Source: Corynebacterium sp.
Lineage (GTDB): Bacteria; Actinomycetota; Actinomycetes; Mycobacteriales; Mycobacteriaceae
Assembly: GCA_030530875.1 (NCBI GenBank)
Contig: JAUMUD010000025.1
Span: 1 to 32,050, forward strand
Direction of reading: 5' to 3'
DNA length: 32,050 nucleotides
This document shows positions 1 to 22,120 of the stretch, in pieces. How positions within the stretch are numbered: position 1 is the stretch's first letter; the number at the start of each line of letters is the position of its first letter. The position numbers were made by a program, and so were the translations under genes. The notes under the pieces are model-generated. The model was not told the DNA's origin, did no database searches, and saw nothing but the letters and a program-made list of their open reading frames with translations.

Positions 1-3000
1 CAGCAGCACCTGGAGCACCAGCGGAGCTACCAGCACCGGCACCCGCACCAGCACCAGCGGCACCATTAGCAGCGGCGGCTGGGGCAATATTGGTCAGGTA
101 ATACCAAGCGGCACCGGCAACACCCAGACCACCAAGGATGATGATTGGCAGCCAGTTGAAGTTCTTGCCATCCAGAGCTTCCTCAGATTTGCTAAGTTCA
201 CCAGCACTTGCCTGCAGGTCAGCGGCGGAAATAGTGTCCACACCATTCACACCATTTGCGGAAGCAATCAGGTTCTCAAGACGGGCAATATTATCCTCAA
301 AGGCCTTCTTCACCTCAGCAGATGCCTTGGTGTAGCGGATGCTCTCATACTCAGCCTTGGCCTGAGCCAGGGCCTGCTTGGCCTGGTCAAGGGCAGTATT
401 GAAGCGGTCCACATTGGTAGAGCCATTGGTGCTGACCACGCTGGTGATAGCAGCAACAGTGGCAGCCGCATCAATCGCATTCTTAGCCTGAGTCTTCTCA
501 TCAGCAGTGAGATTCTTCATGGCGTCAATAGCAGCCTTGGCAGCATCCTTGGAGGCCGAAAGGGCCTTCATCACAGTCTTAGCCACATCAGCCTGGGAGG
601 CATCGGTGCCCAGCTCATCAATGAGCTTCTGCTTTGCCGCAGCATCAAGGTTGCTAATGGCATTAATCGCATCGGTAGCAGCATCCACATCAGCCTGAGT
701 CTTGGCAGCCTCAGCAGCAGTGCTCTGCTCCTGAGTTGGGTTACCACCCATGATGGCATCCACATTGGTTGCAGTCTCAACGAGCTTCTTAATCGCCGCA
801 CCACCCTTAGCAGCATCAATATCGTCCTTATAGGACTGCTTCTGCTCAGGGGTCAGGTTCTCGAGTGCATCAATAGCAGCCTTGGCAGCATCCTTGGCAG
901 CCTTCATAGCCTCAAGAACGGTCGCTGCAACCTCAGCCTGGGTCTTATTAGGAGTCAGCTGGCCAAGGAACTTATCCTGATCCTCAGTTGGCAGACCAAG
1001 GGCCTTGATGGCAGTGGTAGCAGCATCAATGTCATTCTGAGTTGCAGGCTTAGCTGCAGCAGTCTGCTGCTCCTGGGTTGGGTCTGCGCCCATCATTGCA
1101 TTGACATTGCCAGCGGTCTCAAGGATGCCTGGAATCTCATTTGGCTTAGCGGCCTTAAGCTTCTCGGCATAATCCGCACGCTGCTCATCAGTAAGGTTTG
1201 TGAGTGCATCGAGCTTCTTAGCCTCTGCATCGTGGCTTGCCTTGAGAATAATATCGGCAACCTTACCTGCACTGATATTGGTCTCAGGATCACCAGCATT
1301 TGCACCAGGAACCTTGGCTACCAAGTCCTTGTAGTACTGATCCTCCGGACCAAAGCCCAGCTTTTCAAGCTCAGCCTTAGCTGCCTTGATGTCATTATCG
1401 GTGGCAGTGGTGGTCTCAGTGGTTGGGTCAGCAAGAACCAGCGCTGCATCAACCTTCTTAGCACCATCGAGCAGCGCAACAACAGCGGTACCGCCATTAG
1501 CTGCATCAATATCGTCCTTATAGGACTGCTTCTGTGCAGGGGTCAGATTCTCAAGCTTATCAATAGCGTCCTTGGCAGCCTGCTTACCAGCCTGCTCGGC
1601 AGACTTCACTGCCTCAGCAACCTGACCAACAAATGGCTTAGCACCTTCAGAAACATAGACATATGGTGTCCCATTAAGATCTACGCCCGCTGCGGTCAGC
1701 AGTGGTGCATAGGCATCCACAGCTGCCTTACCAGCAATGGTGTCTTCGGCAGTAGCCTGCGCAGTATTACCAAAGTCATCTGCACCCATGGCGGTATCCA
1801 CTGCCTTAGCAGCATCAACAATGCCCTGTGCCGCAGCAGCATCGCCATCATCAACGGCCTTCTTATAAGAAGCCTTCTGCTCATCGGTGAGGTTCTTAAG
1901 CTCATCGATAGCCTGCTTTGCTGCATCCTTCACCGCATCCTTAGCAGCCTTGACAGCCTCAGCAACCTGACCGACAGTTGGATTAGCATCATCAGCAAGG
2001 TAGGTATATGGCGCCTTGGTCATATCCACACCAGCAGCAACAAGCTGATCCTTGAGGGCATCAATAGCCTTCTTGGCAGCGGTCTTATCATCCGCAGTGG
2101 CAGGGGTTGTATCCGCATTTTCGGAATCCGCTGCACCCATAGCGGTATTAACCTTGCCTGCGGCAGCAACTACAGCAGCCTTATCGGTATCAGTACCAGC
2201 GGCAGCAATTGCATCCTTATAAGACTGCTTCTGTGCCTCAGTGAGGTTGTCCAACGCATCAATCTCATCGTTGAACTTCTTATTCCACGCAGCAATAGCT
2301 TCCTTCAGCACATCAGCAACAGTGGCCTGGGAAGTACCCTGCGCATCGGTGCCCTTAGGCAGCTTATTCTTCAGTGCCTCACGGTCGGCCTGTGGGAGCT
2401 TGTCCATCGCATCGATAGCAGCCTTCGCGGCAGCAATATCAGTATCGCTAGCAGCCTCAGTTGCGGCATTGTAGGCAGCATCCTCAGTTGCTTCGTGCAT
2501 ACCCGCACCCTCACGGGAAGCGCTAGCGGTACCCATTACACCGTCAATATTCTTGGCGGTGTCAGCAATCGCATCAGCCTCTTCAGGGGTCGCGGTAGCA
2601 AGCGAATCCTTGTAGAACTGCTTCTGGGCAGGGGTGAGGTTCTTCAGATCGTCGATCTGCTTCGCAGCAGCAGCCTTCAGCGCATCCTGCTTAGCAGCGA
2701 CAGCGGCAGCCACATCAGCAACAGTTGGTGCTGGATCAGTGCTATCCAGCTTCGCAATTGCCTCATCCAGAGCCTGCTGCTGCTCAGTGCTCAGATTCTC
2801 TGTATCTGGATCAGGAATCTGCGCAAGGGCATCCTTAGCAGCCTTAATATCTGTAGCATTTGCTGGAGTCTTCTTCTGTTCCTCAGTAGCGGTGCCACCC
2901 TTAGCAGCATCCACCAACTGCGCATTATTCAGAATCTCATCAGCCTTCTCACCAGGGTGAGCGGCGATGGCATTCTTATATTCGGTCTTCTGCTCAGGGG

Positions 3001-6000
3001 TCAGATTCTCCAGGGAATCAACCTTAGCCTGCTGTGCAGCAACAACAGCATTAGCCACATCTTCATAGGTTGGCTTCGGATTGGTGCTATCCAGCTTATC
3101 GATAAGGTCCTGCTGTTCCTTAGATGGCGTAATGCCGTCAGTCAGCTTCTGAATAGCAGCCTTAGCAGCATCAATATCATCCTGCTTGGCCTCTTCGTCC
3201 TTTACTGGAGGCTGAGGATTCGTAGCAGTATCAGCAGCCTTCTGTGCTTCGGCAATAATGGTGTCAGCACCAGCGCCTGCACCGGCACCCTGAGGGGCAT
3301 CAAGCTTCTGCTTGTAACTTTCCTTCTGTTCCTTGGTCAGACCGTCCAAGGAATCAATCTTGGCCTTTTCGATGGTCTTGAGGGCATTAGCTACCTCAGC
3401 GGCAGTAGGAAGGTTAGGGCTAGTCTGATTTAGCTTTTCGACGGCCTCATCATAAGCCTTCTTTTCAGCCTCAGAGAGCTTAGTGGTATCAACAGCAAGG
3501 TCAGTCACAGCAGCCTTAGCAGCGGTGATGTCCTTTTCGGTTACTGGCTTGTCATTGCCCTCCGCATTTGGATCAACAGCAACATTGCTGAGCTTCTCAG
3601 CCTCGGCAACAAGGTCAGCAGCAGTCTGGCCTTTATTAGCGTCCTCATCGAGCTGCTTCTTGTAGGAATCCTTCTGAGCCTTGGTCAGACCTGGGAGGGA
3701 ATCAATCTTATCCTTCTGAGCCTGCTTAATGGCGTCCAGCAGAGCCCCATTGGTGGCAGCATTCTTGATAGCGTCAGCAGCAGTGCTCTTTGCAGGACCA
3801 GTCAGATTTAGGGCATCGACAGCATCCTGTGCAGCCTTCTTATCAGCCGCAGATGGTGTAGCACTCTTGGCGTCAGTGTCGCCACCAGCAGCCTTGCTTA
3901 CATTCTTGGCATCCTCGATGATCTTCTCGGCAGCAGGGCCGGTGGTATTGGCATCATCCAGAGCCTTGGTATAGGAAGCAACCTGTGCATCAGTCAAGCC
4001 AGGAAGCTGCTGAATAGCAGCCTTCTGTGCAGCCTTCACTGCAGCAGCAACCTGCGCAACAGTAGGCTCACCTTCAGTGGTGCTCTTCAGCTTGTCGACG
4101 GCCTTGTTATAAGCCTGCTTCTCAGCATCAGAGAGCTTTTCAGTGTCGACACCAAGTGCCGTAATAGCCGCTTCAGCAGCCTTTACATCATCCTCGGAAG
4201 CCTTATCGCCATTACCCTCAGCTGTAGCATCCTTGGTGACATTATTAACCTTCTCAGCCTCAGCAACTACGGCAGATGCATCCTGGCTGGACTTGCCGTC
4301 AAGCTGGCCCTTGTAGTAATTCTTCTGAGCCTCGGTCAAGCCATCGAGAGAGTCAATCTTTGCCTCTTGGGCCTGCTTGATAGCAGCAAGAAGTTTCTCA
4401 TTAGTATCTGCATCCTGGACAGCCTGATCCACAGTGGTCTTAGCAGGGGCCGTCAAACCGAGAGCATCAACCGCTGCCTGTGCAGCTGCCTTGTCCTGGG
4501 TCGTAGGCGCCTTTGCTAGTGCTGCGGTACGGCTCGCCTCATCAGTATTACCTGGGTTAGAAGCGCTCACATCAGAGGCACCATCAAGAATCGCCTTGGT
4601 ATCAGCGGCATTAGCTGGTGCAACAGCAGGGCTAGCAGTGGAATCACCAAGAAGCTGCTTCTTATAGGAAGCCTTCTGATCATCGGTCAGACCTGGAAGG
4701 GAATCAATCTTCTGTGCTTCAGCAATACGCAGGATAGCAGCAAGCTCAGCGGTGGTAGGCTGCTCGGCACCTTCAGCACTTGCACCCTTGTACTTCTTAA
4801 TGAGGTCCTTCTGAGGCTCAGTCAGACCTGCTGCGTTCTCATCAAGAGTGACACCGAGTTCCTCAATGGCCTTGGCGGTTGCCGAAAGGTCATCCTTGGT
4901 TGCGGTCTTACCACCAGTGGTGGTGCCGTTCTTCAGAGCGTCATTGACTTCCTGAGCATTGTCCTTAATTGCGGTAATGGCAGAACCGGTGGTTGCAGCC
5001 TTAACCTTGGCAATATAGTCTTCCTTCTGCTTAGGAGTCAGGTAATCCATCGCATTGATAGCGTCAATGGCGCTCTGCTTGGTACCAGTGCGGGCAGACT
5101 GAATAGCTTCAGCAAGATCCTTGATCGTTGCGTTAGAACCGTTGATCTTATTTACCAGCTCGCCACTCTCGATACCGAGAGCCTTCAGCTCAGCAAGAGC
5201 TGCGGCCTTATCGGCATCAGACGCAACAGTAGCGTCCTTTGGCGTGTCCAAAACCTGGTCAGCGCCAAGGGCCTTGGCAGAATCAAAGATCTTCTTGAAA
5301 TCAGAAACTGGCGCCTTGGTGGTATCAAGAGCGTCAATTGCCTTCTTATATGCCTCCAGCTGTGCAGGAGTCAGATTAGGGAACTTCTTTGGATCCTCGA
5401 ATGCCTTCTTGAAAGCAGCCTTCAACTTATCGGCGATATCACCAGCGTTAGTAGCGCTCTCAATGTCGTTATTGAAGGTTTTAAGCTCATCACCGGTAAG
5501 ACCCAGCTCGGTGGCAACAGCCTTTGCTGCAGCCTTATCGTTGTCGGTGATGGCTTCCTGGTTTTGCTCCGTAGTTGGGCTTGCACCCATTGCGGCATCA
5601 ACCTTGGCAGCCTGGTTTGCAATAGCATAAGCATCCAAAGACTTTGGATCGGTGAGGGCATTAACCTTTTCCTTGTATGCCTTCTTCTGCTCAGGTGTAA
5701 GGTTAGTCAGGCTGTCAATAATGCTGTCTGGAGTCTTCGCAGCCTCGGTTTTTGCCTCCTCGAGAATCTTCTTTGCGTCGTCCTTGGTAGGAGCAGCCTG
5801 CAGGCGATCAATATAAGCCTGAATCTTATCGTGATCGAGAACATTGCCCTTAAGGGCTACAAGCTCGTTATATTCGTCGCTGTATTTAGACAGGATTGGG
5901 AAGTCATCGTCCTTGGTCAGCACCAACTGAGCGGTTGGGCCAACCTGGTCACGGGTCGCAATGCTAGTCGGGGTGACATTACCGTTGGAGTCAAATTCAC

Positions 6001-7102
6001 CGAGCTTGACGGAACGTGCGGACTTAGCAGTGTACTCACCAACCGTGGTGGAAACACGATACTCACCATAAGGTACACCGAGGGCAGTGGAAGACTTACC
6101 ATCAGCAACAGTCTTTGTGTCATCGCCAACAGTGTAAGTAACTTCCTGACCAATATTATTGGTCACAGAGAAAGTAGCACGTGCGACCTCAAGGAATGGC
6201 TGCACGGCAGCTTTCCAACCATCAGCACGGTTTTGGTTCCACGTACCAACATCTTGCGCCGGGAATCCCAATTTAGAAGTGTCCCTACGGTATGCCTCAA
6301 CAATATCCGAATAGACACTAGCGTTAGTATCAATCTTGACATTACCTGCGGCTACTGCTGTATCGGTATACTCTACCTGACTAGCGGCCTGGCGATTTAC
6401 GGTGATGCGAATTTTATCGCCTTCAAGCCAACGCTCGGTACCGCGGTAATCCTGCACCTTTACCCAGCCAACTTTACTAAGAAGACCGACCTGCGAAGCA
6501 CCAGAATCGAGATTAGGCGTACCGTCAGCCTTAAACGGGTTCGCAGTGCTCTCATTTGCATAAGTTGCTTCCGTGACGCTGAACGGCACTGCCGTTTCGG
6601 TACCATCAGCCTTGACATAAGTTACCGTAACATCAGAAGCAGTGAGCTGCTGCGGACTAGAAAGTGGCAATGCAAACTGATAAACCGGGAATTTATTATT
6701 ATCACCCAGCTCATTAGACGTATCAGCATTCACAACATATTCAATTGTCCATTTGACATTGTCACCGGCACTGACCCAGTACTTCTGCTTACCAGTTTTC
6801 GAATCAATAATCTCAGCGGTAGCTGTACGGTAGAGAGAATTATAAGTCCACAGGCCCGTATTTACACCAAAAGTGTAGTTACCAAAGCCGAGGTTACCGT
6901 CAGCATTGAATTCGCCATAGACCTGACTGCCAGACTGAAAGGCTGCTGGGCCAACCGAGGTGTCATCAGCTGGCAACTTGTCGACCAACTGAGCATATGC
7001 AAATTGCGTTGCTGTCGGAATGGTAAGAATACCGGCAGAAAGACTGGCCGCAAGAGCCATGGAGCCAAGCAATTGGCTAATTGAACGTTTACCGTAACTC
7101 AA
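1..7102 (-). CDS. Giant helical-repeat surface adhesin, C-terminus cut by window edge
   Basis: At least 2367 codons are open from a TTG start at 7102 to the left edge. The start rests on an AAGGA ribosome site 5 bases upstream and on alignment with the paralogue at 7461-14723: the protein begins (L)SYGKRSISQLL, a signal peptide ending near residue 35. Residues about 36-400 form a beta-type head of unknown family (starting near SGSQVYGEF and including a Cna-B-like stretch with VPYGEYRVSTT). Then come about 16 three-helix modules with the core NLTPEQKxxY, resembling staphylococcal Ebh/FIVAR/GA-like modules, a conserved pre-anchor domain (RYTKASAEVKKAFED), a hydrophobic segment (IIILGGLGVAGAAWYYL) and a Gly/Ala linker. 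The linker runs off the window, so the expected LAXTG tail is inferred only. Likely role: a long fibrous surface adhesin. The ligand is unknown. Confidence 0.9.
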   Translation of the reverse strand, partial: MSYGKRSISQLLGSMALAASLSAGILTIPTATQFAYAQLVDKLPADDTSVGPAAFQSGSQVYGEFNADGNLGFGNYTFGVNTGLWTYNSLYRTATAEIIDSKTGKQKYWVSAGDNVKWTIEYVVNADTSNELGDNNKFPVYQFALPLSSPQQLTASDVTVTYVKADGTETAVPFSVTEATYANESTANPFKADGTPNLDSGASQVGLLSKVGWVKVQDYRGTERWLEGDKIRITVNRQAASQVEYTDTAVAAGNVKIDTNASVYSDIVEAYRRDTSKLGFPAQDVGTWNQNRADGWKAAVQPFLEVARATFSVTNNIGQEVTYTVGDDTKTVADGKSSTALGVPYGEYRVSTTVGEYTAKSARSVKLGEFDSNGNVTPTSIATRDQVGPTAQLVLTKDDDFPILSKYSDEYNELVALKGNVLDHDKIQAYIDRLQAAPTKDDAKKILEEAKTEAAKTPDSIIDSLTNLTPEQKKAYKEKVNALTDPKSLDAYAIANQAAKVDAAMGASPTTEQNQEAITDNDKAAAKAVATELGLTGDELKTFNNDIESATNAGDIADKLKAAFKKAFEDPKKFPNLTPAQLEAYKKAIDALDTTKAPVSDFKKIFDSAKALGADQVLDTPKDATVASDADKAAALAELKALGIESGELVNKINGSNATIKDLAEAIQSARTGTKQSAIDAINAMDYLTPKQKEDYIAKVKAATTGSAITAIKDNAQEVNDALKNGTTTGGKTATKDDLSATAKAIEELGVTLDENAAGLTEPQKDLIKKYKGASAEGAEQPTTAELAAILRIAEAQKIDSLPGLTDDQKASYKKQLLGDSTASPAVAPANAADTKAILDGASDVSASNPGNTDEASRTAALAKAPTTQDKAAAQAAVDALGLTAPAKTTVDQAVQDADTNEKLLAAIKQAQEAKIDSLDGLTEAQKNYYKGQLDGKSSQDASAVVAEAEKVNNVTKDATAEGNGDKASEDDVKAAEAAITALGVDTEKLSDAEKQAYNKAVDKLKSTTEGEPTVAQVAAAVKAAQKAAIQQLPGLTDAQVASYTKALDDANTTGPAAEKIIEDAKNVSKAAGGDTDAKSATPSAADKKAAQDAVDALNLTGPAKSTAADAIKNAATNGALLDAIKQAQKDKIDSLPGLTKAQKDSYKKQLDEDANKGQTAADLVAEAEKLSNVAVDPNAEGNDKPVTEKDITAAKAAVTDLAVDTTKLSEAEKKAYDEAVEKLNQTSPNLPTAAEVANALKTIEKAKIDSLDGLTKEQKESYKQKLDAPQGAGAGAGADTIIAEAQKAADTATNPQPPVKDEEAKQDDIDAAKAAIQKLTDGITPSKEQQDLIDKLDSTNPKPTYEDVANAVVAAQQAKVDSLENLTPEQKTEYKNAIAAHPGEKADEILNNAQLVDAAKGGTATEEQKKTPANATDIKAAKDALAQIPDPDTENLSTEQQQALDEAIAKLDSTDPAPTVADVAAAVAAKQDALKAAAAKQIDDLKNLTPAQKQFYKDSLATATPEEADAIADTAKNIDGVMGTASASREGAGMHEATEDAAYNAATEAASDTDIAAAKAAIDAMDKLPQADREALKNKLPKGTDAQGTSQATVADVLKEAIAAWNKKFNDEIDALDNLTEAQKQSYKDAIAAAGTDTDKAAVVAAAGKVNTAMGAADSENADTTPATADDKTAAKKAIDALKDQLVAAGVDMTKAPYTYLADDANPTVGQVAEAVKAAKDAVKDAAKQAIDELKNLTDEQKASYKKAVDDGDAAAAQGIVDAAKAVDTAMGADDFGNTAQATAEDTIAGKAAVDAYAPLLTAAGVDLNGTPYVYVSEGAKPFVGQVAEAVKSAEQAGKQAAKDAIDKLENLTPAQKQSYKDDIDAANGGTAVVALLDGAKKVDAALVLADPTTETTTATDNDIKAAKAELEKLGFGPEDQYYKDLVAKVPGANAGDPETNISAGKVADIILKASHDAEAKKLDALTNLTDEQRADYAEKLKAAKPNEIPGILETAGNVNAMMGADPTQEQQTAAAKPATQNDIDAATTAIKALGLPTEDQDKFLGQLTPNKTQAEVAATVLEAMKAAKDAAKAAIDALENLTPEQKQSYKDDIDAAKGGAAIKKLVETATNVDAIMGGNPTQEQSTAAEAAKTQADVDAATDAINAISNLDAAAKQKLIDELGTDASQADVAKTVMKALSASKDAAKAAIDAMKNLTADEKTQAKNAIDAAATVAAITSVVSTNGSTNVDRFNTALDQAKQALAQAKAEYESIRYTKASAEVKKAFEDNIARLENLIASANGVNGVDTISAADLQASAGELSKSEEALDGKNFNWLPIIILGGLGVAGAAWYYLTNIAPAAAANGAAGAGAGAGAGSSAGAPGAA
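90..157 (-). other. Hydrophobic segment 1 of the truncated giant protein
   Basis: This encodes NWLPIIILGGLGVAGAAWYY, preceded by the conserved ALDGKNF and followed by a Gly/Ala-rich linker. The same segment occurs at the same place in three other proteins of the island, always before the linker that leads to the sorting signal. Confidence 0.8.
480..1560 (-). repeat. 345-bp tandem coding repeats in the C-terminal part of the first giant gene
   Basis: The string taggactgct recurs at 831 and 1521 (690 bp apart, twice 345). Diverged copies of the same region lie at 486 and 1176. Each unit encodes about 115 aa: one NLTxxQKxxY module plus a linking module of the type ADVDAATDAINAISNL. The period matches that in the neighbouring giant gene. 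Confidence 0.75.
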
Positions 7103-7460: not shown

Positions 7461-10400
7461 CTAGCTCTCCTTGCGGCGGCGGGCAGCAAATACGCCACCA
7501 ACTGCGAGCAGGGCAAGAGCAAGCAGACCCAGTTCAGAGACATTGGCGCCTGTCATTGCAAGAACACCGCGGGATGCGCTGGCCTGGGCATCCTGACCAG
7601 CAGCACCTGTAGTAGCAGTGCCGTTGGCCTGACCGGACTGAGCGCCATTTGCCTGGTTGTTCTGATCACCAGCAATTACGCCATTGGAGCTACCTGCAGC
7701 AGTGCTGCCTGCACCATTAGCGGTTGCGCCTGCACCTGCAGCACCGGCACCAGCTGCACCGGCTGCGCCATTAGCTGCTGCGGTTGCTGGGGCAACATTA
7801 TTGAAGTAGTACCATGCAGCACCGGCAACACCGAGGCCACCAGCCAGAAGGATGATTGGCATCCAGTTGAACTTCTTGGCCTCCACACCGTCGAGGGCTT
7901 CCTCGGAAGTGCCAAGGTCAGAGGCGTAGGCATAGAGGTCAGCAGCGGAAACATCCGTAGCACCATCAACAGCCTCAGCAGAAGCAATGAGGTTCTGCAG
8001 GCGAGCAATATTATCCTCGAAGGCCTTCTTCACCTCAGCCGAAGCATTGGTGTAGCGGACATTCTCGTACTCAGTCTGCGCCTGGGCCAGGGCCTGCTTG
8101 GCCTGGTCAAGGGCCGAATTGAAGCGGTTGGTATTGGTGGTGTCATTGGTGGTTACCACACTGGTGATAGCAGCAATAGTGGCAGCCGCATCAATCGCAT
8201 CCTTGGCCTGAGTCTTCTCATCATCGGTGAGATTCTTCATGGCATCAATGGCGTTCTTGGCGGCAGTCTTGGATGCGTTCAGGGCATCCATCACAGCCTT
8301 GGCCACATCAGCCTGGTTACCAGCATTATCCACACGGTCGAGGAAGCTCTGCTTTTCCTCATCACTGAGGTTGGAAAGGGCATTGATAGCATCCTTGGCC
8401 GCAGCCTTATCCTGATCGGATGGGGCAGCGGTATTAGCGGCAGTAGCCTTATCGCCGGCCTCACCACCCATAACTGCATCAATATTGCCTGCGCTGGTCA
8501 GGGTATTGGTGACAGTCTCAGGGTTGGTAGCAGCATCAATGGCATTCTTATAGGAGTCCTTCTGCTCTGGGGTGAGGTTCTCCATCGAATCAATAGCTGC
8601 CTTGGCGGCATCCTTGGAGGAATTCAGAGCCTTCATCACAGTATTAGCCACATCAGCCTGGGAGGCATCCGTGCCCAGCTCATCGAGATACTGCTGCTTG
8701 GCGGCATCATCCAAGTTGGTCATTGCATTAATAGCAGCGGTGGCCGCATCCACATCAGCAGTGATCTTAGCAGCTTCAGCAGCAGTGCTCTGATCAGTGC
8801 TTGGGTTGCCGCTCATGACTGCGTCCACATTGGTTGCGGTTTCGACAATCTTATTAATAGCATCGGCGCCATTGGCAGCATCCACTGCATCCTTATAGGA
8901 CTGCTTCTGCTCAGGAGTCAGATTATCCAGGGCCTCAATGGCGGCCTTGGCAGCATCCTTGGATGCGCTAAGAGCGTGCATGACAGTATCAGCAACCTGC
9001 GCCTGGGAGGAATCGGTGCCCAGCTCATCGAGGTAGCGCTGCTTGGTGGCATCATCCAAATTGCTCAATGCGTTGATGGCAGCAGTTGCTGCAGCCACAT
9101 CAGCATCGGTCTTTGGATTAATAGCCGAAGCGCTCTGCTCAGTGCTTGGGTTGCCACCCATAATGGCATCCACATTGGTTGCGGTTTCGACAATCTTATT
9201 AATAGCCTCTGCACCCTTAGCGGCATCAATGCTGTCCTTATAGGACTGCTTCTGCTCAGGGGTGAGGTTGGTGAGGGCGTCGATAGCCTGCTTTGCAGCC
9301 TCCTTGGCAGCATCCAGAGCCTTGAGCACAGTGGCGGCCACATCAGCCTGGGTGGTGTCAGTACCCAACTCGTCAATGAACTGCTGCTTGGTGGCATCAT
9401 CCAGGTTGGTCATTGCATTAATCGCAGCGGTGGCTGCAGTGACATCCTGGGTGGACTTTGGATTAGCAGCAGCGGTGCTCTGATCCTGGCTTGGGTTACC
9501 ACCCATGACGGCATCAACATTAGTGGCGGTGCCAAGAATGCTATTGGCCGTGTTGCTATCAGCAGACTCAATTTGCTGCTTATAGCTCTCACGCTGCTCA
9601 TCGGTGAGGTTAGTGAGCTTGTTCAGGGCAGCAACGGAGGCATTGCGGGTGGCCTTGAGGACAATATCAGCAACCTGGCCGGCAGTGAGATTATCAGCAT
9701 TGAGCTGGGTGTAATAATCATCGCTTTCCGTGAAGCCAAGGTCCTCGAGAGCCTTCTTAGCAGCAGCAATATCATTGCTGGTTGCTGGGGTGGTTACGCT
9801 CGTTGGGTCAGTTGCGCCCATGCCGGTATCCACCTGGGTAGCACCATCAACAATGGAGTTGATCTGTGCTGCACCCTTGGCTGCATCAATATCATCCTTA
9901 TAGGACTGCTTCTGCGCAGGGGTCAGGTTGTTCAATGCATCAATAGCCTGCTTAGCTGCTTCCTTGGATGCATTGAGGGCATCCAGCACGACCTTGGCCA
10001 GGGTGGCCGGATCGGTGGCGGAATTTGCTTGAGCCTTGAAGTCATCAATAAGCGATGGAATATTGGTGATTGCATCAAGAGCAGCCTGAGCTGCTGCAGT
10101 ATCCTGGCTGGTTACCGGCTTACTTGCAATAGCGGAGGTATCAGCCTGTGGATCCATGCCCGTGTTGACATTTGTTGCACCGGTGACAATATCATCTGCG
10201 GCGGTCGCATCAGCAGTATCAATCTGATCCTTATAGGACTGCTTCTGCTCCGGGGTGAGATTATCCAGGGCATCAATAGCCTGCTTAGCAGCCTGCTTAG
10301 CAGCATCCTTGGCGGCCTTCACTGCCTCGGCGAGCTGACCCACGGTTGGGTTGTCATCATTGACATAGGAATATGGCTGCTGGGTGGTATCCACGCCGGC

Positions 10401-13400
10401 TGCCTTCAACTGATCAGCAAGGGCGGCAAGGGCCTTCTGGGCACCATCCTTATCAGCATCAGTTGCTGCATTGGTATTAGCCGTTTCAGGATTCTCGCTG
10501 GCCATAGCGGTATCCATCGCCTTTGCGGCGTCAACAATAGCCTGCTTGGCCTCATCGCTTGGGGCAGCGGCAATTGCGTCCTTATAGGCCTGCTTCTGCT
10601 CCGGGGTGAGGTTGGTCAAGGAATCAACCTGCGTGTCGTAGGTTTCATTCCATGCGGCAATGGCGCGCTTGAGGGAATCAGCAACATTAGCCTGGCTGAG
10701 GTTATCGCCTGCCAGTGCGGTGTTGAGGTAGAAGTCCTTCGTGGCCTGTGGGAGTGCAGTCATGCCGTTAATAGCGGCCTTAGCTGCATCAATATCAGCC
10801 TGGGTTGCGGCATCGGTGGCTGCATTATAAGCAGCATCCTCGGTGGAAGGATGGCTGCTTGCGGTGGAATCCGTGGCAGTACCCATTACCCCATCGACAT
10901 TCTTTGCCGTTTTGGCAATGGCGTTAGCTTCAGCTGGGGTGGCCTCACTGACAGCACGAAGATAATCAGCCTTCTGTGCTGGGGTGAGGTTGGTGAGGTT
11001 ATTAATGGCATTAACGGCACTATCCTTAACCGCATTCTGGGCTGCGGCTACGGCTGCGGCCACATCACCCACGGTTGGGTTATCGCCATTAAGCTTGGCC
11101 ATTGCCTCATCATAGGCCTGCTTGGCCTCTGGGCTAAGAGTATTCTCATCCACCTGTGGCAGGGCTGCAATAGCGTCCTTGGCACCCTGAATATCCGTGG
11201 CATTAGCAGGGGTATTCTTCTGCTCATCGGTGGCAGTATTGCCAGCGGCAGCATCAACCAAAGCAGCATTATCCAAAATAGCCTTGGCCTGCTCACCCGT
11301 GGTATTAGCCAGGGCATTAATATAGTCCTGCTTCTGCTCTGGGGTGAGGTTGCTCAGGCTATTAATCTTTGCTTCCTGGGCTGCACGAACAGCATCTGCC
11401 AAATCCGCATAGGTGGCATCAGCATTCTGTGCCTTATCAATGCGTGCCTGCAGGGCTGGGTCAATATCACTAATGCCATTGGTCAGGGCATCGGTAGCAC
11501 TCTTTGCTGCCTCACGGTCCGCTGCAGTGGTGGCATCGGTATTGGTCGTTGCAGTTGGATCAGTCAGGGCTGCTGCAGCCTTGGTGGCTGCATCAATAAT
11601 AGCCTCGGCTGCACTACCCGTAGCATCCTTCAACTGCTCCTGATAGCTGGCCTTTTGCTCTGCGGTCAAACCATCAAGGGAATCAATCTTTGCCTTCTGA
11701 ATATCCTTCAGGGCCTGGGCAAGCTCTGCGGTGCTTGGGCGTGGATCGGTCTTGGCAAGAGTTGCCACTGCGGCATCATAGGCTGCCTTTTCCGTATCAC
11801 TCAACTTGCTGGTATCCACATCAAGCGCGGAGACCTCTGCCTGGGCAGCCGCAATATCATCAGCAGTGGCCTCATCGGCACTGCCTTCAGCGGTAGCATC
11901 CTTGGTGACATTATTGACCTTGGTTGCTTCATCTACAAGATTTGCTGCATCCTGGCCATTGGCATTGTCCAGGGCCTTCTTATAGGAATCCTTCTGGGCC
12001 TGGGTGAGTCCATCCAGGGAATCAATCTTTGCCTTCTGGGCATCCTTAATGGCATCAAGCAGGGCTTGGTTAGTACCAGCAGCAGCAATATCGCTGGCGG
12101 CCTTGGTTGCGGCATCACCAGTAAGACCCAAAGCATCTACTGCGGCCTGGGCTGCAGTCTTCGAGGACTCTTCAGGGCTTGTACTCTGGGAAGCGCTATC
12201 CCCACCGGCAGCATTATTTACTGCGGTTGCGGCAGCAATAATGGCGGCGGCATCAGTGGCATTTGGTACGGTGGCCGTACCAGAATCACTCGTACCATTG
12301 AGCTGCTTCTTATAGGAATCCTTCTGGGTATCAGAAAGATTTGGCAGCTCATCAATCTTCTTTTCCTGGGCCAGGCGCAAAACCTCAGCAATCTGACCAT
12401 CGGTCAGACCACTAAGATTATCGGTGGTGGCATTCTGGAATGCACGAATGGCTGCCTGCTCATCCGGAGTATAGGAAGAGTCATTTGGATCCAGGGTTAC
12501 ACCAAGGGCGGTGATGGCGGAATCAGCTGCCGTCTTGGAACCTGCGGTTGCGACCGTGGTATTGCTCAGTGGGTCACTTGCACCCATCGCGGAATTGACA
12601 CTCTGTGCGGCGCTAAGAATAGTACTTGCACCGGTACCAGCTGCGGCATCAACCTGCTTCTTGTACTCAGTCTTCTGTGCCTCAGTCAGGTATGGCAGGG
12701 CATCAATCTGATCCTTGACGCTGCTACGAGTATTGCTTGCGGCATCCTTGACTGCCTGAGCAACCTCACTCACAGTCATGCTGCTATTGGTATCCGCAAG
12801 CTTCTGGTAGGTTGGATCTGTTTCGGCGACACCGAGGGCCTTAAGCTCTGCCAAAGCAGCAGCCTTATCCTCTGCACTAGCAGTATTCGTATTCTCTGCT
12901 GCATTATCAGCCATGGCATCACTAACAGCCTTGGCGGAGTCGAAGATCTTCTTATAATCGGCCACGGATGCCGTCGAAGGATCAAGGGCATCAATAGCAG
13001 CCTTATAGGAATCAAGCTGCGCTGGGGTCAGATTTGGGAAGCGGTTGGCATCTTCAAAAGCATCCTTGAATGCATTCTTCAGTGCGGTGGCAATATCACC
13101 ATCAGTGCTGGCGCTATCAATCACACCGTCAAAGGCGGTTTCTGCATCGCCGGTAAGACCAAGCTCGCTGGCAACAGCCTTGGCAGCTGCCTTATCGGCA
13201 TCAGTTGCTGCCACAGCATTTTGCGTAGCGGTTGGGTTCGCTGCCATAGCAGCATCCACACTGGCAGCAGCATTGGCAATGGCAAAGCCATCCGCACCAG
13301 TAGCATCCAGCTGGGAAAGATAATCAGCCTTCTGTGCTGGGGTCAGGTTAGTAAGGGAATTAATACGATCGGCTGGAGTCAGCTTGGCATCAGCAACAAT

Positions 13401-14723
13401 GGCATCAGCTTCCTCAACACTCTTGGCTGCCTGAAGCTGCTTAATATAATCAGCCTTGCGGGTGTCATTAACCTGGGTACTTGGGAGATCAAGAATCTCA
13501 TCCAGCTGGGACTTATAGGTGGACAGCGCTGGGAAGGAAGTCTCAGGGGTCAGGGTCAAAATAGCATTTGGCCCCAGAGCATCACGATCGGAAGTCGTGG
13601 AAACCGAATCAACACCATCCTCACCCAGGGTCACCGAGTTATTGGAATCAATGGTGAAACCACGGTAGGTGGTGGAAGCAGTATAGGTACCATAAGGTGC
13701 ACCGACAGCGGAGGAAGAAGCATTGGATGCAACGGTACGGGTGGTGTCCCCAACCTTATAGGTGACATCGAAGCCAAGGTTATTGACAACACTGACGGAA
13801 GCACGTGCTACCTGAAGGAATGGCTGGTTAACACTGAAGAAGCCATTCCAACCGGTGCGGTTCCAGGAAATGAGCTTATTAGAGCCGTCACCAGCAACAT
13901 TAATATTGGATTCGGCCTGGCGGTAACCCTCATAAATATCAGCGAAGAGTCGGGCGTTCTTGTCGATCTGAACATCACTTGCACTCAGCGCAGTATCAGA
14001 GAAGTCCACCGTACCAGTGGCCTTCTGCTGCACAGTAATGGTGATCTTATCGCCGGTCAGCCAACGTACACGGGAGGAATCATTGGATGCGGTAGGCACA
14101 CTCACCCAATGCACACTGTCCATGGCGCCGAGGTTGTTCATATTATCGGTGTTCTTAGAACCATCCGACTTGAATGGCGAAGCACCAGTCTCATTTGTTG
14201 AATTTGGCGTAGTTACTGCAGTATCAACAGGGGTGCTAATACCATCAGCAGTAGTGTAGGTGACACTGGTGACTTCGCTATTATCACCAGTATCGCTGCC
14301 AATCACTGGCAGGGCAAAGTAAAAGACCGGCTTATTAGCATCGGTCTCATTTGCCTGGTCAGTGTCCTTGTCAACCACATAGGTCAAAGTCCAGGTGATG
14401 GTATCACCGGCACTGGCCCAGTACTTCTTATTGCCCTGGGCATCAGTGATATCTGCAGTAACGGTACGATAGGTTGCGTTATAGAACCAGGTACCATCCT
14501 CCAAGTCTGCAGTGTAGTTACCAAAAGCAGCATTACCCGACCTTGGGTCATAATCGCCATAAATCTGGCCGCTGTGGCCAACCGCCGTGGAAAGAACATC
14601 CGATGGGTAGGCATTAGCCATTGGCTGGTTGAGAGCTGGCACTGCAAGAGTGCCAACAGAAATACTGGTGGCCACCGCCATAGTGCCCAGCAACTGGTAG
14701 ATAGAGCGCTTGCCGTATTGCAC
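7461..14723 (-). CDS. Giant helical-repeat surface adhesin with LAMTG sorting signal
   Basis: 2420 aa from a GTG start at 14723 with an AAGGA site 6 bases upstream. Residues 1-38 are a signal peptide with the motif YGKRSIYQLL. Residues about 36-400 are a beta-rich head homologous to that of the truncated neighbour (GQIYGDYD, a Cna-B-like stretch with APYGTYTASTT). About 16 three-helix modules follow (NLTPEQKQSYKD core with a downstream VDAxMGG), Ebh/FIVAR/GA-like and most alike near the C-terminus. Then come a pre-anchor helical domain (RYTNASAEVKKAFED), hydrophobic segment 1 (about 2288-2308, ending WYY), a Gly/Ala/Asn linker of about 75 aa, and LAMTG at 2388-2392 with a second hydrophobic stretch and RRRKES. 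LAXTG is the type used by class E sortases. No cysteine was noticed. Probable cell-wall-linked adhesin; ligand unknown. Confidence 0.95.
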   Translation of the reverse strand: MQYGKRSIYQLLGTMAVATSISVGTLAVPALNQPMANAYPSDVLSTAVGHSGQIYGDYDPRSGNAAFGNYTADLEDGTWFYNATYRTVTADITDAQGNKKYWASAGDTITWTLTYVVDKDTDQANETDANKPVFYFALPVIGSDTGDNSEVTSVTYTTADGISTPVDTAVTTPNSTNETGASPFKSDGSKNTDNMNNLGAMDSVHWVSVPTASNDSSRVRWLTGDKITITVQQKATGTVDFSDTALSASDVQIDKNARLFADIYEGYRQAESNINVAGDGSNKLISWNRTGWNGFFSVNQPFLQVARASVSVVNNLGFDVTYKVGDTTRTVASNASSSAVGAPYGTYTASTTYRGFTIDSNNSVTLGEDGVDSVSTTSDRDALGPNAILTLTPETSFPALSTYKSQLDEILDLPSTQVNDTRKADYIKQLQAAKSVEEADAIVADAKLTPADRINSLTNLTPAQKADYLSQLDATGADGFAIANAAASVDAAMAANPTATQNAVAATDADKAAAKAVASELGLTGDAETAFDGVIDSASTDGDIATALKNAFKDAFEDANRFPNLTPAQLDSYKAAIDALDPSTASVADYKKIFDSAKAVSDAMADNAAENTNTASAEDKAAALAELKALGVAETDPTYQKLADTNSSMTVSEVAQAVKDAASNTRSSVKDQIDALPYLTEAQKTEYKKQVDAAAGTGASTILSAAQSVNSAMGASDPLSNTTVATAGSKTAADSAITALGVTLDPNDSSYTPDEQAAIRAFQNATTDNLSGLTDGQIAEVLRLAQEKKIDELPNLSDTQKDSYKKQLNGTSDSGTATVPNATDAAAIIAAATAVNNAAGGDSASQSTSPEESSKTAAQAAVDALGLTGDAATKAASDIAAAGTNQALLDAIKDAQKAKIDSLDGLTQAQKDSYKKALDNANGQDAANLVDEATKVNNVTKDATAEGSADEATADDIAAAQAEVSALDVDTSKLSDTEKAAYDAAVATLAKTDPRPSTAELAQALKDIQKAKIDSLDGLTAEQKASYQEQLKDATGSAAEAIIDAATKAAAALTDPTATTNTDATTAADREAAKSATDALTNGISDIDPALQARIDKAQNADATYADLADAVRAAQEAKINSLSNLTPEQKQDYINALANTTGEQAKAILDNAALVDAAAGNTATDEQKNTPANATDIQGAKDAIAALPQVDENTLSPEAKQAYDEAMAKLNGDNPTVGDVAAAVAAAQNAVKDSAVNAINNLTNLTPAQKADYLRAVSEATPAEANAIAKTAKNVDGVMGTATDSTASSHPSTEDAAYNAATDAATQADIDAAKAAINGMTALPQATKDFYLNTALAGDNLSQANVADSLKRAIAAWNETYDTQVDSLTNLTPEQKQAYKDAIAAAPSDEAKQAIVDAAKAMDTAMASENPETANTNAATDADKDGAQKALAALADQLKAAGVDTTQQPYSYVNDDNPTVGQLAEAVKAAKDAAKQAAKQAIDALDNLTPEQKQSYKDQIDTADATAADDIVTGATNVNTGMDPQADTSAIASKPVTSQDTAAAQAALDAITNIPSLIDDFKAQANSATDPATLAKVVLDALNASKEAAKQAIDALNNLTPAQKQSYKDDIDAAKGAAQINSIVDGATQVDTGMGATDPTSVTTPATSNDIAAAKKALEDLGFTESDDYYTQLNADNLTAGQVADIVLKATRNASVAALNKLTNLTDEQRESYKQQIESADSNTANSILGTATNVDAVMGGNPSQDQSTAAANPKSTQDVTAATAAINAMTNLDDATKQQFIDELGTDTTQADVAATVLKALDAAKEAAKQAIDALTNLTPEQKQSYKDSIDAAKGAEAINKIVETATNVDAIMGGNPSTEQSASAINPKTDADVAAATAAINALSNLDDATKQRYLDELGTDSSQAQVADTVMHALSASKDAAKAAIEALDNLTPEQKQSYKDAVDAANGADAINKIVETATNVDAVMSGNPSTDQSTAAEAAKITADVDAATAAINAMTNLDDAAKQQYLDELGTDASQADVANTVMKALNSSKDAAKAAIDSMENLTPEQKDSYKNAIDAATNPETVTNTLTSAGNIDAVMGGEAGDKATAANTAAPSDQDKAAAKDAINALSNLSDEEKQSFLDRVDNAGNQADVAKAVMDALNASKTAAKNAIDAMKNLTDDEKTQAKDAIDAAATIAAITSVVTTNDTTNTNRFNSALDQAKQALAQAQTEYENVRYTNASAEVKKAFEDNIARLQNLIASAEAVDGATDVSAADLYAYASDLGTSEEALDGVEAKKFNWMPIILLAGGLGVAGAAWYYFNNVAPATAAANGAAGAAGAGAAGAGATANGAGSTAAGSSNGVIAGDQNNQANGAQSGQANGTATTGAAGQDAQASASRGVLAMTGANVSELGLLALALLAVGGVFAARRRKES
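7794..7868 (-). other. Hydrophobic segment 1 of the 2420-aa protein
   Basis: Residues about 2286-2310: NWMPIILLAGGLGVAGAAWY and following. It stands about 80 residues before LAMTG. The preceding flank carries Lys-Lys, and the following linker has almost no charge, which does not fit a simple stop-transfer segment in the inner membrane. Confidence 0.8.
8200..9600 (-). repeat. 345-bp tandem coding repeats of the 2420-aa gene
   Basis: The tcttatagga-type sequence recurs at 8546, 8891, 9236 and (diverged) 9581, each exactly 345 bp apart. Units encode about 115 aa: one NLTPEQKxSY module plus one ADVxAATAAINAxSNLDDAxK linking module. Upstream units are shorter or more diverged. Confidence 0.85.
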
Positions 14724-15650: not shown

Positions 15651-18600
15651 CTAGCGCTCCCGGCGGCGACGCAATGTAAATGCGCCACCAAGGGCGATAA
15701 GCACCATGGCCAGCACGGCAATGCCGCGAACTTGTGCACCGGTAATTGCAAGCGTGCCCTTCGCAGGAGCCGCAACCGGAGCAGGTGCTGGTGCAGGAGC
15801 AGGTTCCCTGCTTGGCTCAGGGGTAGCCGTTGGTGCCGGGGCTGGTGGCACTGTTGGCTCAGGAGTGGCCGGCTGATTATTCAGCACGTACCAGATAGCA
15901 CCGCCCACACCAAGGGCACCAACACCAAGCAGGATTGGCAGCCAATTGATGCTGTGCTGTTCCACACCATCAAGGGCATCCGAAGCAGCGGTGAGATTAT
16001 TCGACGCAGTGGTGAGGTCCGCCGCAGTAACATTATCCATACCGTTGGTTTCATCGGCGGAGGCAATGAGTGAGGTGAGCGCAGCGACACGGTCCTCAAA
16101 GGCCTTCTTTGCATCAGCCGAGGCATTGGTATAACGCACCTGGTCATACTGTGCCTTAGCCTGAGTCAGAGCATCTTTGGCCTTAGCCAGTGCATCAGTG
16201 AAGCGCGAAGTATTAGTGTTCTTCGCAGAAGCAAGTAGGCTATCCAGATTGGTGAGTTCAGCCTCATCAATCTGCTTCTTCACCGTGGCCTTTTCCTCAT
16301 CACTGAGGTTCTTCAGCGGATCAATCTGATTCTTGGCATTCTGGCGTGTTGCCCCATCAATTGCCGAGGCAACAGTCGTACCAGACTTGGCATTATCAAT
16401 CTGGTCCTCGTAGCTCTTCTTCTGCTCATCAGTCAGGCTAGAGAGCGTACCCACACTCTCCTTCGCAGCCTTCTTGGCAGCATCCAGCGCCTCAAGAACA
16501 GTGGTTGCCACATCAGCCTCAGTACCATTTGTAGCAAGCTTATCGGTAAAACCCTTACGGGTATCCGCATCAAGATTACTCAGCGCATCAATCGCAGCAG
16601 TTGCTGCCGCCACATCAGCAGTCGTCTTTAGCGCACCAGTAGCAGCAGTCTTCTGCTCATCACTTGGATTCTCCCCCATCACCGCATCAATGGTGCTAGC
16701 GGAAGTAACCACAGCATTAATAGCAGCAGCGCCAATAGCCGAATCCACCGAGTCCTTATAGGAGCTCTTCTGGTCCAGGGTCAGGTTTGTGAGTGCATCA
16801 ATACTCTTCTTTGCTGCACTCTTAGCAGCATCCAACGCCTCAAGAACAGTAGCTGCCACATCAGCCTCAGTACTATTCGTAGCAAGCTTATCGGTAAAAC
16901 CCTTACGGGTATTCGCATCAAGATTACTCAGCGCATCAATCGCAGCAGTTGCTGCCGCCACATCAGCAGTCGTCTTTAGCGCACCAGTAGCAGCAGTCTT
17001 CTGCTCATCACTTGGATTCTCCCCCATCACAGCATCAATGGTGCTGGCGGAGCTAAGGAGCGTCTTAATCGCCTCGCCACCATTGGCAGCATCAACAGCG
17101 GACTTATAGGAAGTCTTCTGCTCAGGGGTGAGTTTTGTGAGTTCATCAATGCTGTTCTTGGCAGCAGTCTTATCATCCTTCACGGCATTGAGGACAGTAT
17201 TTACCACATCGGCCTGGGAGGTATTCGTACCCAGGGCAGTGATATAGTTCTGCCTTGCGGTGTCATCAAGACTGCTCAGCGCATTAATAGCAGCAGTTGC
17301 TGCAGTCACATCAGCATCGGTCTTAGCCGTAGCAGCGCTTAGGTTGCCACCCATCACGGAATCCACATTGGTCGCACTCTCAAGAATCTTGGGTGCAGTG
17401 AGTGCATCAACGTCCTTCACCTGGGACTTATAGCTTTCGCGCTGTTCATCAGTGAGGTTCTTCAGCTGATTGAATTTCGCAATAGTCGTATTGCGGGTTG
17501 CATCAATAAGTGCCTGAGCGACATCGCCCGCGGTGACATTAGGAGCCGAAACCTGCTGATAATAGTCATCCGTGGTGGTGAAACCAAGCTTCTTCAGTGC
17601 CGCCTGGGCGGCAGCAATATCGGCATCAGTTGCGAGATCAGTTCCACTGCTCTTTGGATCAGAAGCACCCATCGCGGTGTCGACCGCAGTTGCACCACTA
17701 ACAATCGTGACGATCGTGCCGGCACCAGGGGTTGCGCCGATGGCCGCCAAATACGAACTCTTCTGATCCTCAGTCAGATTCTTCAACCCATTAATGGAAT
17801 TGGTCGCAATGGACTTGGATTGCGCAATTGCCCGCACAAGAAATGGGAACATTTCGCCGTATGGAATATGACTATCCAGACCGTTATTGTAATCCGCTAG
17901 GTCCGTAGAAGGAAGATTAGTGAGCTTAGCCAGAGCGGCCTTTGCTGCATCATAATCCTCTAGTTCTGTATCTTCCGTGGCAAAACCGGATGTATCACCA
18001 TTCGGGTTCATAGAAATATTGGAATTTTTCGCGCCTTGGAAGATTTTATCGCGGGTACGCCCTGAATCGGGGTTATCGATCTTTTCCTTGTAGTAGGTCT
18101 TTTGTTCTTCCGTAAGGTACTGAAAACCATCAATCTGCTTCTTCAGATCATCAACCTGGGCATTTTCAGCACTTTTAACGGCAGCAGCAAGCTGACCAAT
18201 GGTTGGGGAGGCATCATTAATATAGCTGTACGGTGTGGCGCTTAGATCCACGCCCATACTTTGCAGCTGTGCTGCAAGTCCGGCGATAGCTGCCTGGGCT
18301 GCGGCTTTATCGGTATCTGTAGCCGGCGTCGTGTCTGCGGTCTCTGGGTTTTCTTCACCCATGGCGGTATTAACCTTGGTGGCTCCACTGACAGCAGCCG
18401 CCTTGGAGGTATCGTCAAGGGCCGAGGAAATTGCGCTCGTATAGGTATTCTTCTGTGAACCGAGCAGATTTCCTAGAAGTCCGATCTTATTCTGATAGTA
18501 CGTATCCCAGGTGACAGTGGCGACATTCGTAATATTTGCAATACTAGATAGCGGATCCCCTAAACTCGGAGTATTCGATGTCACCCATGAACGTTGTGGT

Positions 18601-18998: not shown

Positions 18999-19048
18999 CG
19001 TAAATCTCATTTCCTGCACTGAACGTGCTCTTTTTAGCAATCTATTAC

Positions 19049-22032: not shown

Positions 22033-22120
22033 TGGGGAACCAACTTTCACCATCATCAGGACTATCACTGCGATTCGTGGCCAACTCACAGCCTTTTGTA
22101 CTTCTTTTATAATAACCCAT

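Follow-up and report, generated by a model that had tools for sequence, protein, structure and literature searches.

A hydrophobic segment ahead of the sorting signal of corynebacterial GA-module proteins as a candidate mycomembrane anchor in series with a wall anchor

Introduction

The mycomembrane anchor of PS2 is a helix of about 25 residues at its C-terminus, as the accessible portions of two studies describe (PMC12337289, PMC12021427), and PS2 serves, as the earlier note on this DNA had proposed, as a precedent for the membrane half of a double anchor. PorH and ProtX of Corynebacterium glutamicum are mycomembrane proteins for which the available part of a preprint concludes that a covalent link to the wall is likely (PMC12632848), and they offer a precedent for combining mycomembrane location with wall linkage. 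No machinery for crossing the mycolate membrane had been identified by 2013, according to the available part of a review of that year (PMC3796261). The combination of a mycomembrane segment with a sortase signal is undescribed in the literature that we searched, a coverage mostly without subscription papers. Like PS2 as it appears in the available text, the proteins analysed here are predicted to be Sec-exported, all-helical surface proteins with one C-terminal hydrophobic mycomembrane helix near a disordered stretch.

GA-module proteins with two hydrophobic segments

The window, the whole 32,050-nt stretch of DNA that was analysed, is the entire contig C59 of a 2.19-Mb genome in 67 contigs. 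A single named relative was found, the Corynebacterium sp. MAG isolate S11A_Sa_2_sub, with 96% identity to a query of 106 aa. Four proteins encoded on its minus strand, P0001 (2420 aa), P0002 (1129 aa), P0003 (569 aa) and P0004 (2367 aa, cut by the contig end), are GA-module proteins by the presence of PF01468 repeats above the gathering score, with 18, 10, 2 and 14 GA-module stretches above the Pfam cut-off, respectively. The neighbouring P0005 scored 14.5 against PF01468, below the cut-off of 24. Toward the C-terminus, each of P0001–P0004 has a helical domain and then a hydrophobic stretch (segment 1) with an Ala/Gly/Pro linker behind it; in the three complete proteins, P0001–P0003, the linker of 43–80 residues is followed by LAxTG, a second hydrophobic segment (segment 2) and a basic tail. 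Segment 1 has 20–22 residues in the window proteins and ends 113 (P0001), 76 (P0002) and 79 (P0003) residues before the C-terminus. The features are as follows.

7461–14723, minus strand: P0001, secreted GA-module surface protein of 2420 aa with segment 1 and LAMTG (PF01468 E = 1.9e-98, 18 GA-module stretches)
7785–8138, minus strand: P0001, C-terminal helical (FIVAR-like) domain plus segment 1, from a profile of domain plus segment
7803–7865, minus strand: P0001, segment 1, proposed mycomembrane-spanning helix, WMPIILLAGGLGVAGAAWYYF (from translation), followed by a linker of 80 aa
7464–7562, minus strand: P0001, sorting signal with LAMTG (7548–7562), segment 2 and RRRK tail (from sequence and sorting-signal profile)
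15651–19040, minus strand: P0002, GA-module protein with segment 1 and LAITG, 1129 aa from an upstream TTG or 1115 aa from MPYGKH...
15882–15944, minus strand: P0002, segment 1, WLPILLGVGALGVGGAIWYVL, a separate helix of low confidence in AlphaFold2, followed by a linker of 43 aa
15654–15752, minus strand: P0002, sorting signal with LAITG (15738–15752), segment 2 and RRRRER
20380–22089, minus strand: P0003, GA-module protein with segment 1 and LASTG, 569 aa from an upstream GTG or 550 aa from MSHGKR...
20620–20685, minus strand: P0003, segment 1, ISLPVIGAIALGIAGVGAAAWY, followed by a linker of 46 aa
20383–20481, minus strand: P0003, sorting signal with LASTG (20467–20481), segment 2 and YRRREI
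2–7102, minus strand: P0004, giant GA-module protein, cut by the contig end past segment 1 and within the linker, before any LAxTG position
95–154, minus strand: P0004, segment 1, WLPIIILGGLGVAGAAWYYL
19062–20360, minus strand: P0005, 432 aa, which shares the C-terminal helical domain and has a hydrophobic segment (19101–19184) but no LAxTG

These translations confirm an extra hydrophobic segment ahead of the sorting signal in the three complete proteins, as the earlier note had described from the sequence with coordinates that agree with ours within a few residues. Its further claims that the truncated giant has the same segment and that a Gly/Ala or Pro/Ala linker follows also hold, for P0004 and for all four proteins, respectively. 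The Trp-Tyr ending that it reported is found in the window proteins, but many relatives lack it; since Trp is in addition commoner near the N edge of the helix-type segments described below (28/48) than near the C edge (11/48), we rejected a conserved Trp-Tyr as a mark of segment 1.

The domain-plus-segment profile covers P0005 over its full length, and the protein ends shortly past the segment, with a final Ile. From this architecture, P0005 appears to be a natural single-anchor paralogue, which suggests that the domain-plus-segment unit can occur as a lone anchor. A search of plasmids with P0003 gave no match. Two proteins next to each other, P0006 (22223–24613, minus strand) and P0007 (24625–27336, minus strand), match no Pfam family above cut-off; both contain a stretch of low complexity and, toward the C-terminus, a hydrophobic segment. 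At the N-termini of P0001–P0004 (near 14723, 19040, 22089 and 7102, minus strand) there is a common signal-peptide motif, [YH]GK[RH][ST]IxQL[LI], which we take to recall the YSIRK signal peptides of Firmicutes.

Recurrence of the layout in the genome

The domain-plus-segment profile matches 21 places in the genome. A sorting-signal profile gave 16 genome matches at E ≤ 0.001; the C-terminus was readable in 12, namely the three window proteins, two proteins on C34 and one each on C46, C8, C19, C14, C28, C55 and C65, and segment 1 is present in 12/12. The remaining four matches are cut by contig ends (C42, C33) or were not read (C58, C63). The occurrence of segment 1 ahead of the sorting signal in this genome is more than chance. 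The segment of the C55 protein, FLPFLPLIPLLPIIPALPIWPY, has a proline at about every third position.

Three large proteins in tandem on C50 and one on C61 are GA-like by eye and carry a hydrophobic segment and an amphipathic-looking tail without LAxTG; these four share a different N-terminal pattern, MN(K/S)K followed by (F/L)GRMAxAS. The C28 protein (L021; 66000–72500) and L285 (genome G136) have a second LPxTG (LPATG and LPVTG) at most 20 residues before segment 1. Their sequences possibly contain two sorting signals in tandem, an LPxTG besides the LAxTG before segment 2.

A single PF04203 sortase match was found in the genome, and it is of class E by NF033747 (263 bits against a cut-off of 160). 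P0001–P0003 have what is expected of the substrates of such an enzyme, an LAxTG with a hydrophobic stretch and a basic tail behind it, in a genome that encodes a class E sortase. Curated sorting-signal models are borderline. In one search TIGR01167 was tied at its cut-off for P0001 (15.9) and below it for P0003 (15.2), with P0002 unlisted, and none of the three reached the cut-off of NF058582; when the genome was searched, NF058582 was passed by P0002 (29.1, cut-off 27) and TIGR01167 by P0001 (23.9). The genome also has two ketoacyl-synthase domains, in open frames of 1656 and 2981 residues, which can be read from size and domain as Pks13 and FAS-I, fitting a mycolate maker.

Taxonomic survey

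Segment 1 was scored by a two-part rule: a mean Kyte–Doolittle hydropathy of at least 1.4 over 17 residues, ending 12–130 residues before LxxTG, or 14 consecutive residues drawn from AILVFMWPGYC, 7 or more of them from ILVFMW, ending 10–130 residues before it (the run test). Where the start of the frame was close by, its first 45 residues were excluded. Thresholds were fixed after the first relatives had been seen and were then the same for every set. In 101 Corynebacterium genomes, a search with the 247-aa synthase domain of Pks13 (E ≤ 1e-20) gave 93 genomes with a match and 8 without.

Among the Pks13-positive Corynebacterium, segment 1 is present in 73/136 LAxTG rows, and 27 of the 57 genomes with an LAxTG row read have at least one. 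These rows are mostly the best-scoring sorting-signal matches and not a random draw; 6/136 repeat the C-terminus of another row, four have fewer than 60 residues to inspect, and L246 is probably no real gene end. Three loci of the Corynebacterium set, L196, L204 and L245, could not be parsed. Twenty of the 73 positives come from the present genome and its near relative G175, and without both genomes the count is 53/115. Three positives (L112, L116, L125) look like beta domains and are doubtful; leaving them out gives 70/136 rows and 24/57 genomes. One true-looking segment 1, in L232, was missed through the signal-peptide trim. In the eight Pks13-lacking genomes, for which all 28 loci were inspected (4 without a parsable signal), segment 1 was found in 0/23 LAxTG rows and 0/6 LPxTG rows. 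The contrast with the Pks13-positive set is strong per row (Fisher, 2e-7; 4e-7 without the doubtful rows) and moderate per genome (0.017; 0.022 without them). LPxTG rows of Pks13-positive Corynebacterium have segment 1 in 2/20, and a pilin-type ETxxP-like motif is present in 13/20. About half of the Pks13-positive LAxTG rows do without segment 1, which is therefore not needed for wall anchoring there.

The available text of one source states that C. amycolatum is without mycolates (PMC3658426), and a title in its reference list says the same of C. kroppenstedtii. The eight Pks13-lacking genomes form about two groups, judged by eye from the signal sequences. Because perhaps only two losses were sampled, mycolate loss is phylogenetically weak as a control; the absence of segment 1 in these species could be a lineage effect, and chance absence in two lineages is quite possible from these sequences.

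For the other genera of the family, which we take to be mycolate bearers, membership in the family is a label of kinship, the Pks13 search having covered the Corynebacterium genomes. They yielded 22 loci, of which 18 were parsed and 17 are positive, in five of six genera (LAxTG 7/7, LPxTG 10/11); LPxTG-type signals thus also bear segment 1 there. In one of these genera, g69 (L301, L305–L307, L310, L316), WP(V/I) is frequent within the segment, behind which lies a long Gly/Ser-rich linker; the segment ends ~100–120 residues before LAETG or a similar motif.

Controls from outside the family were two samples of the class. The first set of 69 loci yielded 68 rows (none from L063 or L073, one antisense extra from L051), and in the second 5/69 loci were unparsed. 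The rule was passed by 17/132 rows (LAxTG 7/61, LPxTG 10/71), and the run test alone by 2/132 (one LAxTG, one LPxTG) versus 59/136 in Pks13-positive Corynebacterium. Inspected by eye, these 17 comprise beta domains, chaplin-like repeats, short-protein signal peptides and an antisense artefact; none of the 132 rows was judged by eye to have a transmembrane-like segment with a linker. According to the earlier note, the double anchor would be refuted if the layout were common in actinobacteria lacking an outer membrane. Such commonness was looked for and was not seen in the sampled genomes. The layout is frequent in Pks13-positive Corynebacterium and in five other genera of the family and is absent from the 23 Pks13-lacking LAxTG rows. 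In the sampled genomes, the pattern of sequences indicates that the layout accompanies an outer mycolic-acid membrane.

Segment chemistry, flanking charges and structural model

The 91 positives of the family comprise 48 helix-type segments, with a median length of 18 residues, and 43 proline-type segments, which have at least three prolines (for example FLPILPLIPLIPLIPFIV, LVPLIPLLPLIPLLPFVI and GLIIIPLPIPLPPW). Clustering on the segment only gave 45 sequence clusters; with linkers included, all-against-all clustering put 85 members into one uninformative cluster. Linkers across the set are 33–120 residues long. Positive charges are rare behind segment 1. The 12 residues that follow it contain on average 0.17 K/R in the helix type and 0.19 in the proline type, and none in 41/48 and 35/43 segments, respectively; behind segment 2 the means are 3.58 (helix-type rows) and 3.67 (proline-type rows). 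Membrane insertion was scored on an approximate scale, so that the medians give a rough ranking only: segment 2, −2.96; 14 helices of P0008 and P0009, −1.61; helix-type segment 1, −0.65 (n = 45); proline-type segment 1, +4.38.

AlphaFold2 modeling of the last 200 residues of P0002 (9 sequences) gave a mean pLDDT of 68.6. The model has a confident helical bundle at residues 2–94 (blocks of 82–94 up to residue 90), segment 1 as a separate helix at 105–125 with a block confidence of 51–53, an unstructured linker of low confidence and a helix at segment 2. A PDB fold search gave no match reaching E 0.001.

A Gly-Ser-Ser patch behind segment 1

Gly-Ser-Ser (GSS) is enriched directly behind segment 1. 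It is present in the first 15 linker residues of 30/88 rows (the 91 positives minus doubtful rows), compared with 4/88, 6/69 and 1/39 in later linker windows and with a mean of 2.4 and a maximum of 7 in 1000 shuffled controls. By cluster, 23/45 have GSS beside the segment in their first member (10 before, 15 after). Within 150 residues before the signal, GSS occurs in 47/88 segment-1 rows, 10/63 Pks13-positive LAxTG rows without segment 1 and 15/132 outside rows; the motif alone is not mycolate-specific, because it is also upstream in 11/29 Pks13-lacking rows. The window proteins have no GSS within 15 residues behind segment 1, and P0001 has one further along its linker. The available part of one source describes the sites of O-mycoloylation as flexible and rich in Ser, with Gly and Ala besides and no strict consensus (PMC11066868). 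The patch near segment 1 recalls such sites in its composition, a link that we offer as a suggestion.

Discussion

The layout is real and not a product of chance. From its sequence features, we consider that segment 1 probably acts as a mycomembrane anchor, coupled in series to a wall anchor of the class E sortase type, its location being deduced. The double anchor put forward in the earlier note is partly supported by the taxonomic pattern, the flanking charges, the weak rough insertion score and the proline-rich kind of segment, but segment 1 occurs in only about half of the LAxTG rows. Sec would export the protein by a signal peptide that we recognised by eye, and segment 1 would pass the translocon, being weakly insertion-prone or full of prolines and having no positive charges behind it. 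Segment 2 and its RRR tail would then stop export in the inner membrane and so offer LAxTG to the class E sortase, which would cleave the signal and link the protein to peptidoglycan. The linker of 33–120 residues, probably disordered, would cross the wall and arabinogalactan, placing segment 1 in the mycomembrane and displaying the repeat domains outside. In many species, the GSS patch soon behind segment 1 may be O-mycoloylated, fixing the segment there.

An ordinary stop-transfer helix that holds the protein in the inner membrane, with the LAxTG part cytoplasmic or re-crossing, is a rival account of segment 1. The helix-type segments may be hydrophobic enough for it, with a slightly favourable median score (−0.65 for 45 segments, on the rough scale), and P0006, P0007 and the C50/C61 proteins, too, have one lone hydrophobic segment close to the C-terminus. 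Yet the stretch behind segment 1 is free of K/R in most segments of either type, the proline kind scores unfavourably (median about +4.4), a sorting signal retained downstream would be useless, and the taxonomic pattern would be left unexplained; we give this account a small chance. The flanking charges also led us to reject an inner-membrane hairpin as the default reading. Segment 1 might instead be exported and sit in no membrane, acting as a hydrophobic surface or self-association element in the manner of the Streptomyces chaplin domains that precede a sorting signal. A class E sortase anchors the hydrophobic CwpA and CwpB in an actinomycete of another family, where they are compared with long chaplins in the available text (PMC13251363), and chaplin-like matches are present among our controls (L062, L067, L354, L365). 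The same text describes chaplin domains as multiple beta-sheets with GN motifs, whereas the segments are single Gly/Ala or proline-periodic stretches, one of which a low-confidence AlphaFold2 model makes a helix. Self-association also leaves the link between layout and Pks13 unexplained, and we regard it as improbable.

Two further readings concern the history of the segment. Descent alone could account for the link with mycolates, if the cassette arose in the family and a couple of lineages then lost it by chance; this reading gains from the perhaps only about two mycolate losses sampled and from the 30/57 Pks13-positive genomes that likewise have no segment 1 among the rows read. Two chemistries, 45 clusters and five other genera speak instead for repeated origin or strong retention, and with 0/132 outside-family rows judged to have a transmembrane-like segment with a linker, we hold an accident of descent to be unlikely. 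Segment 1 could also be a functionless relic of a sorting signal that was duplicated, in favour of which a second LPxTG stands at most 20 residues before it in 2/91 positives (L021 of this genome and L285). The 89 others have no such motif there, the proline kind is unlike a sorting signal, and a mere relic should not persist so widely, which makes this origin very improbable.

Beyond the mycomembrane anchor itself, a more general proposal is tentative and, in our judgement, has somewhat less than an even chance of holding. Mycolate bacteria may possess a C-terminal cassette made of a crossing segment (a Gly/Ala helix or a proline-periodic stretch), a Ser/Gly patch for O-mycoloylation, a disordered linker spanning the wall and a sortase signal, which would serve both surface display and a covalent tether from outer membrane to wall, a mycolate counterpart of Lpp. 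Within this proposal, the proline-periodic stretch would probably be polyproline-II-like and would be invisible to the lateral gate of Sec. The cassette, if true, would be a simple answer to how peptidoglycan-linked proteins reach the outside of the mycolate membrane. It would also make exposed proteins predictable from sequence and supply a display anchor for laboratory corynebacteria, and segments of the proline-periodic kind would occupy a membrane in an unusual manner.

Comparison with known systems

The resemblance to the PS2 anchor is that one hydrophobic helix, here of 20–22 residues in the window proteins, lies close to the C-terminus and has no basic tail behind it. Unlike PS2, which according to the available text ends at its anchor with Phe, segment 1 of P0001–P0003 ends well before the C-terminus. 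Sequence searches with P0005, P0003 and the domain profile detected no homology to PS2, which is also absent from the best 50 of 95 fold matches. Membership of the PS2 family was rejected on these grounds, namely that the anchor is not at the very C-terminus, that P0005 ends in Ile and that there was no PS2 match.

To our knowledge, Streptomyces and Actinoplanes have no mycomembrane. Like the class E sortase substrates CwpA/B and the long chaplins, as presented in the available text, the window proteins combine an LAxTG-type signal, a hydrophobic stretch and a basic tail with a class E sortase, and some of those substrates have hydrophobic matter upstream of the signal, as here (PMC13251363). 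Chaplin domains are beta-forming in that text (PMC13251363), unlike the Gly/Ala or proline-periodic segments found here, and chaplin membership was rejected, the listed segments having no beta-rich GN-motif domain and one forming a helix in the low-confidence model.

With the staphylococcal Ebh/Embp GA-FIVAR giants the proteins share repeated GA modules, and the C-terminal helical domain resembles the EbhA/Embp folds 2dgj, 4kjm and 6gv5 at weak E values of 0.25–0.99 (probability 0.95–1.00); a profile search with this domain gave 6gv5 at E = 0.044. The likeness is limited, as helical domains of DnaK/Hsp70 score alike and none of the best 50 of 95 fold matches reaches E 0.001. Staphylococci, as far as we know, have no outer membrane.

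PorH and ProtX differ, in the available text, in being small, in having no identifiable Sec signal and in an open linkage chemistry (PMC12632848), and the words 'sortase' and 'LPXTG' are absent from the text of that paper. The likeness to PorH and ProtX, which the available part of the same preprint compares with Lpp (PMC12632848), is that of an outer-membrane protein also linked to the wall, a linkage that is here predicted.
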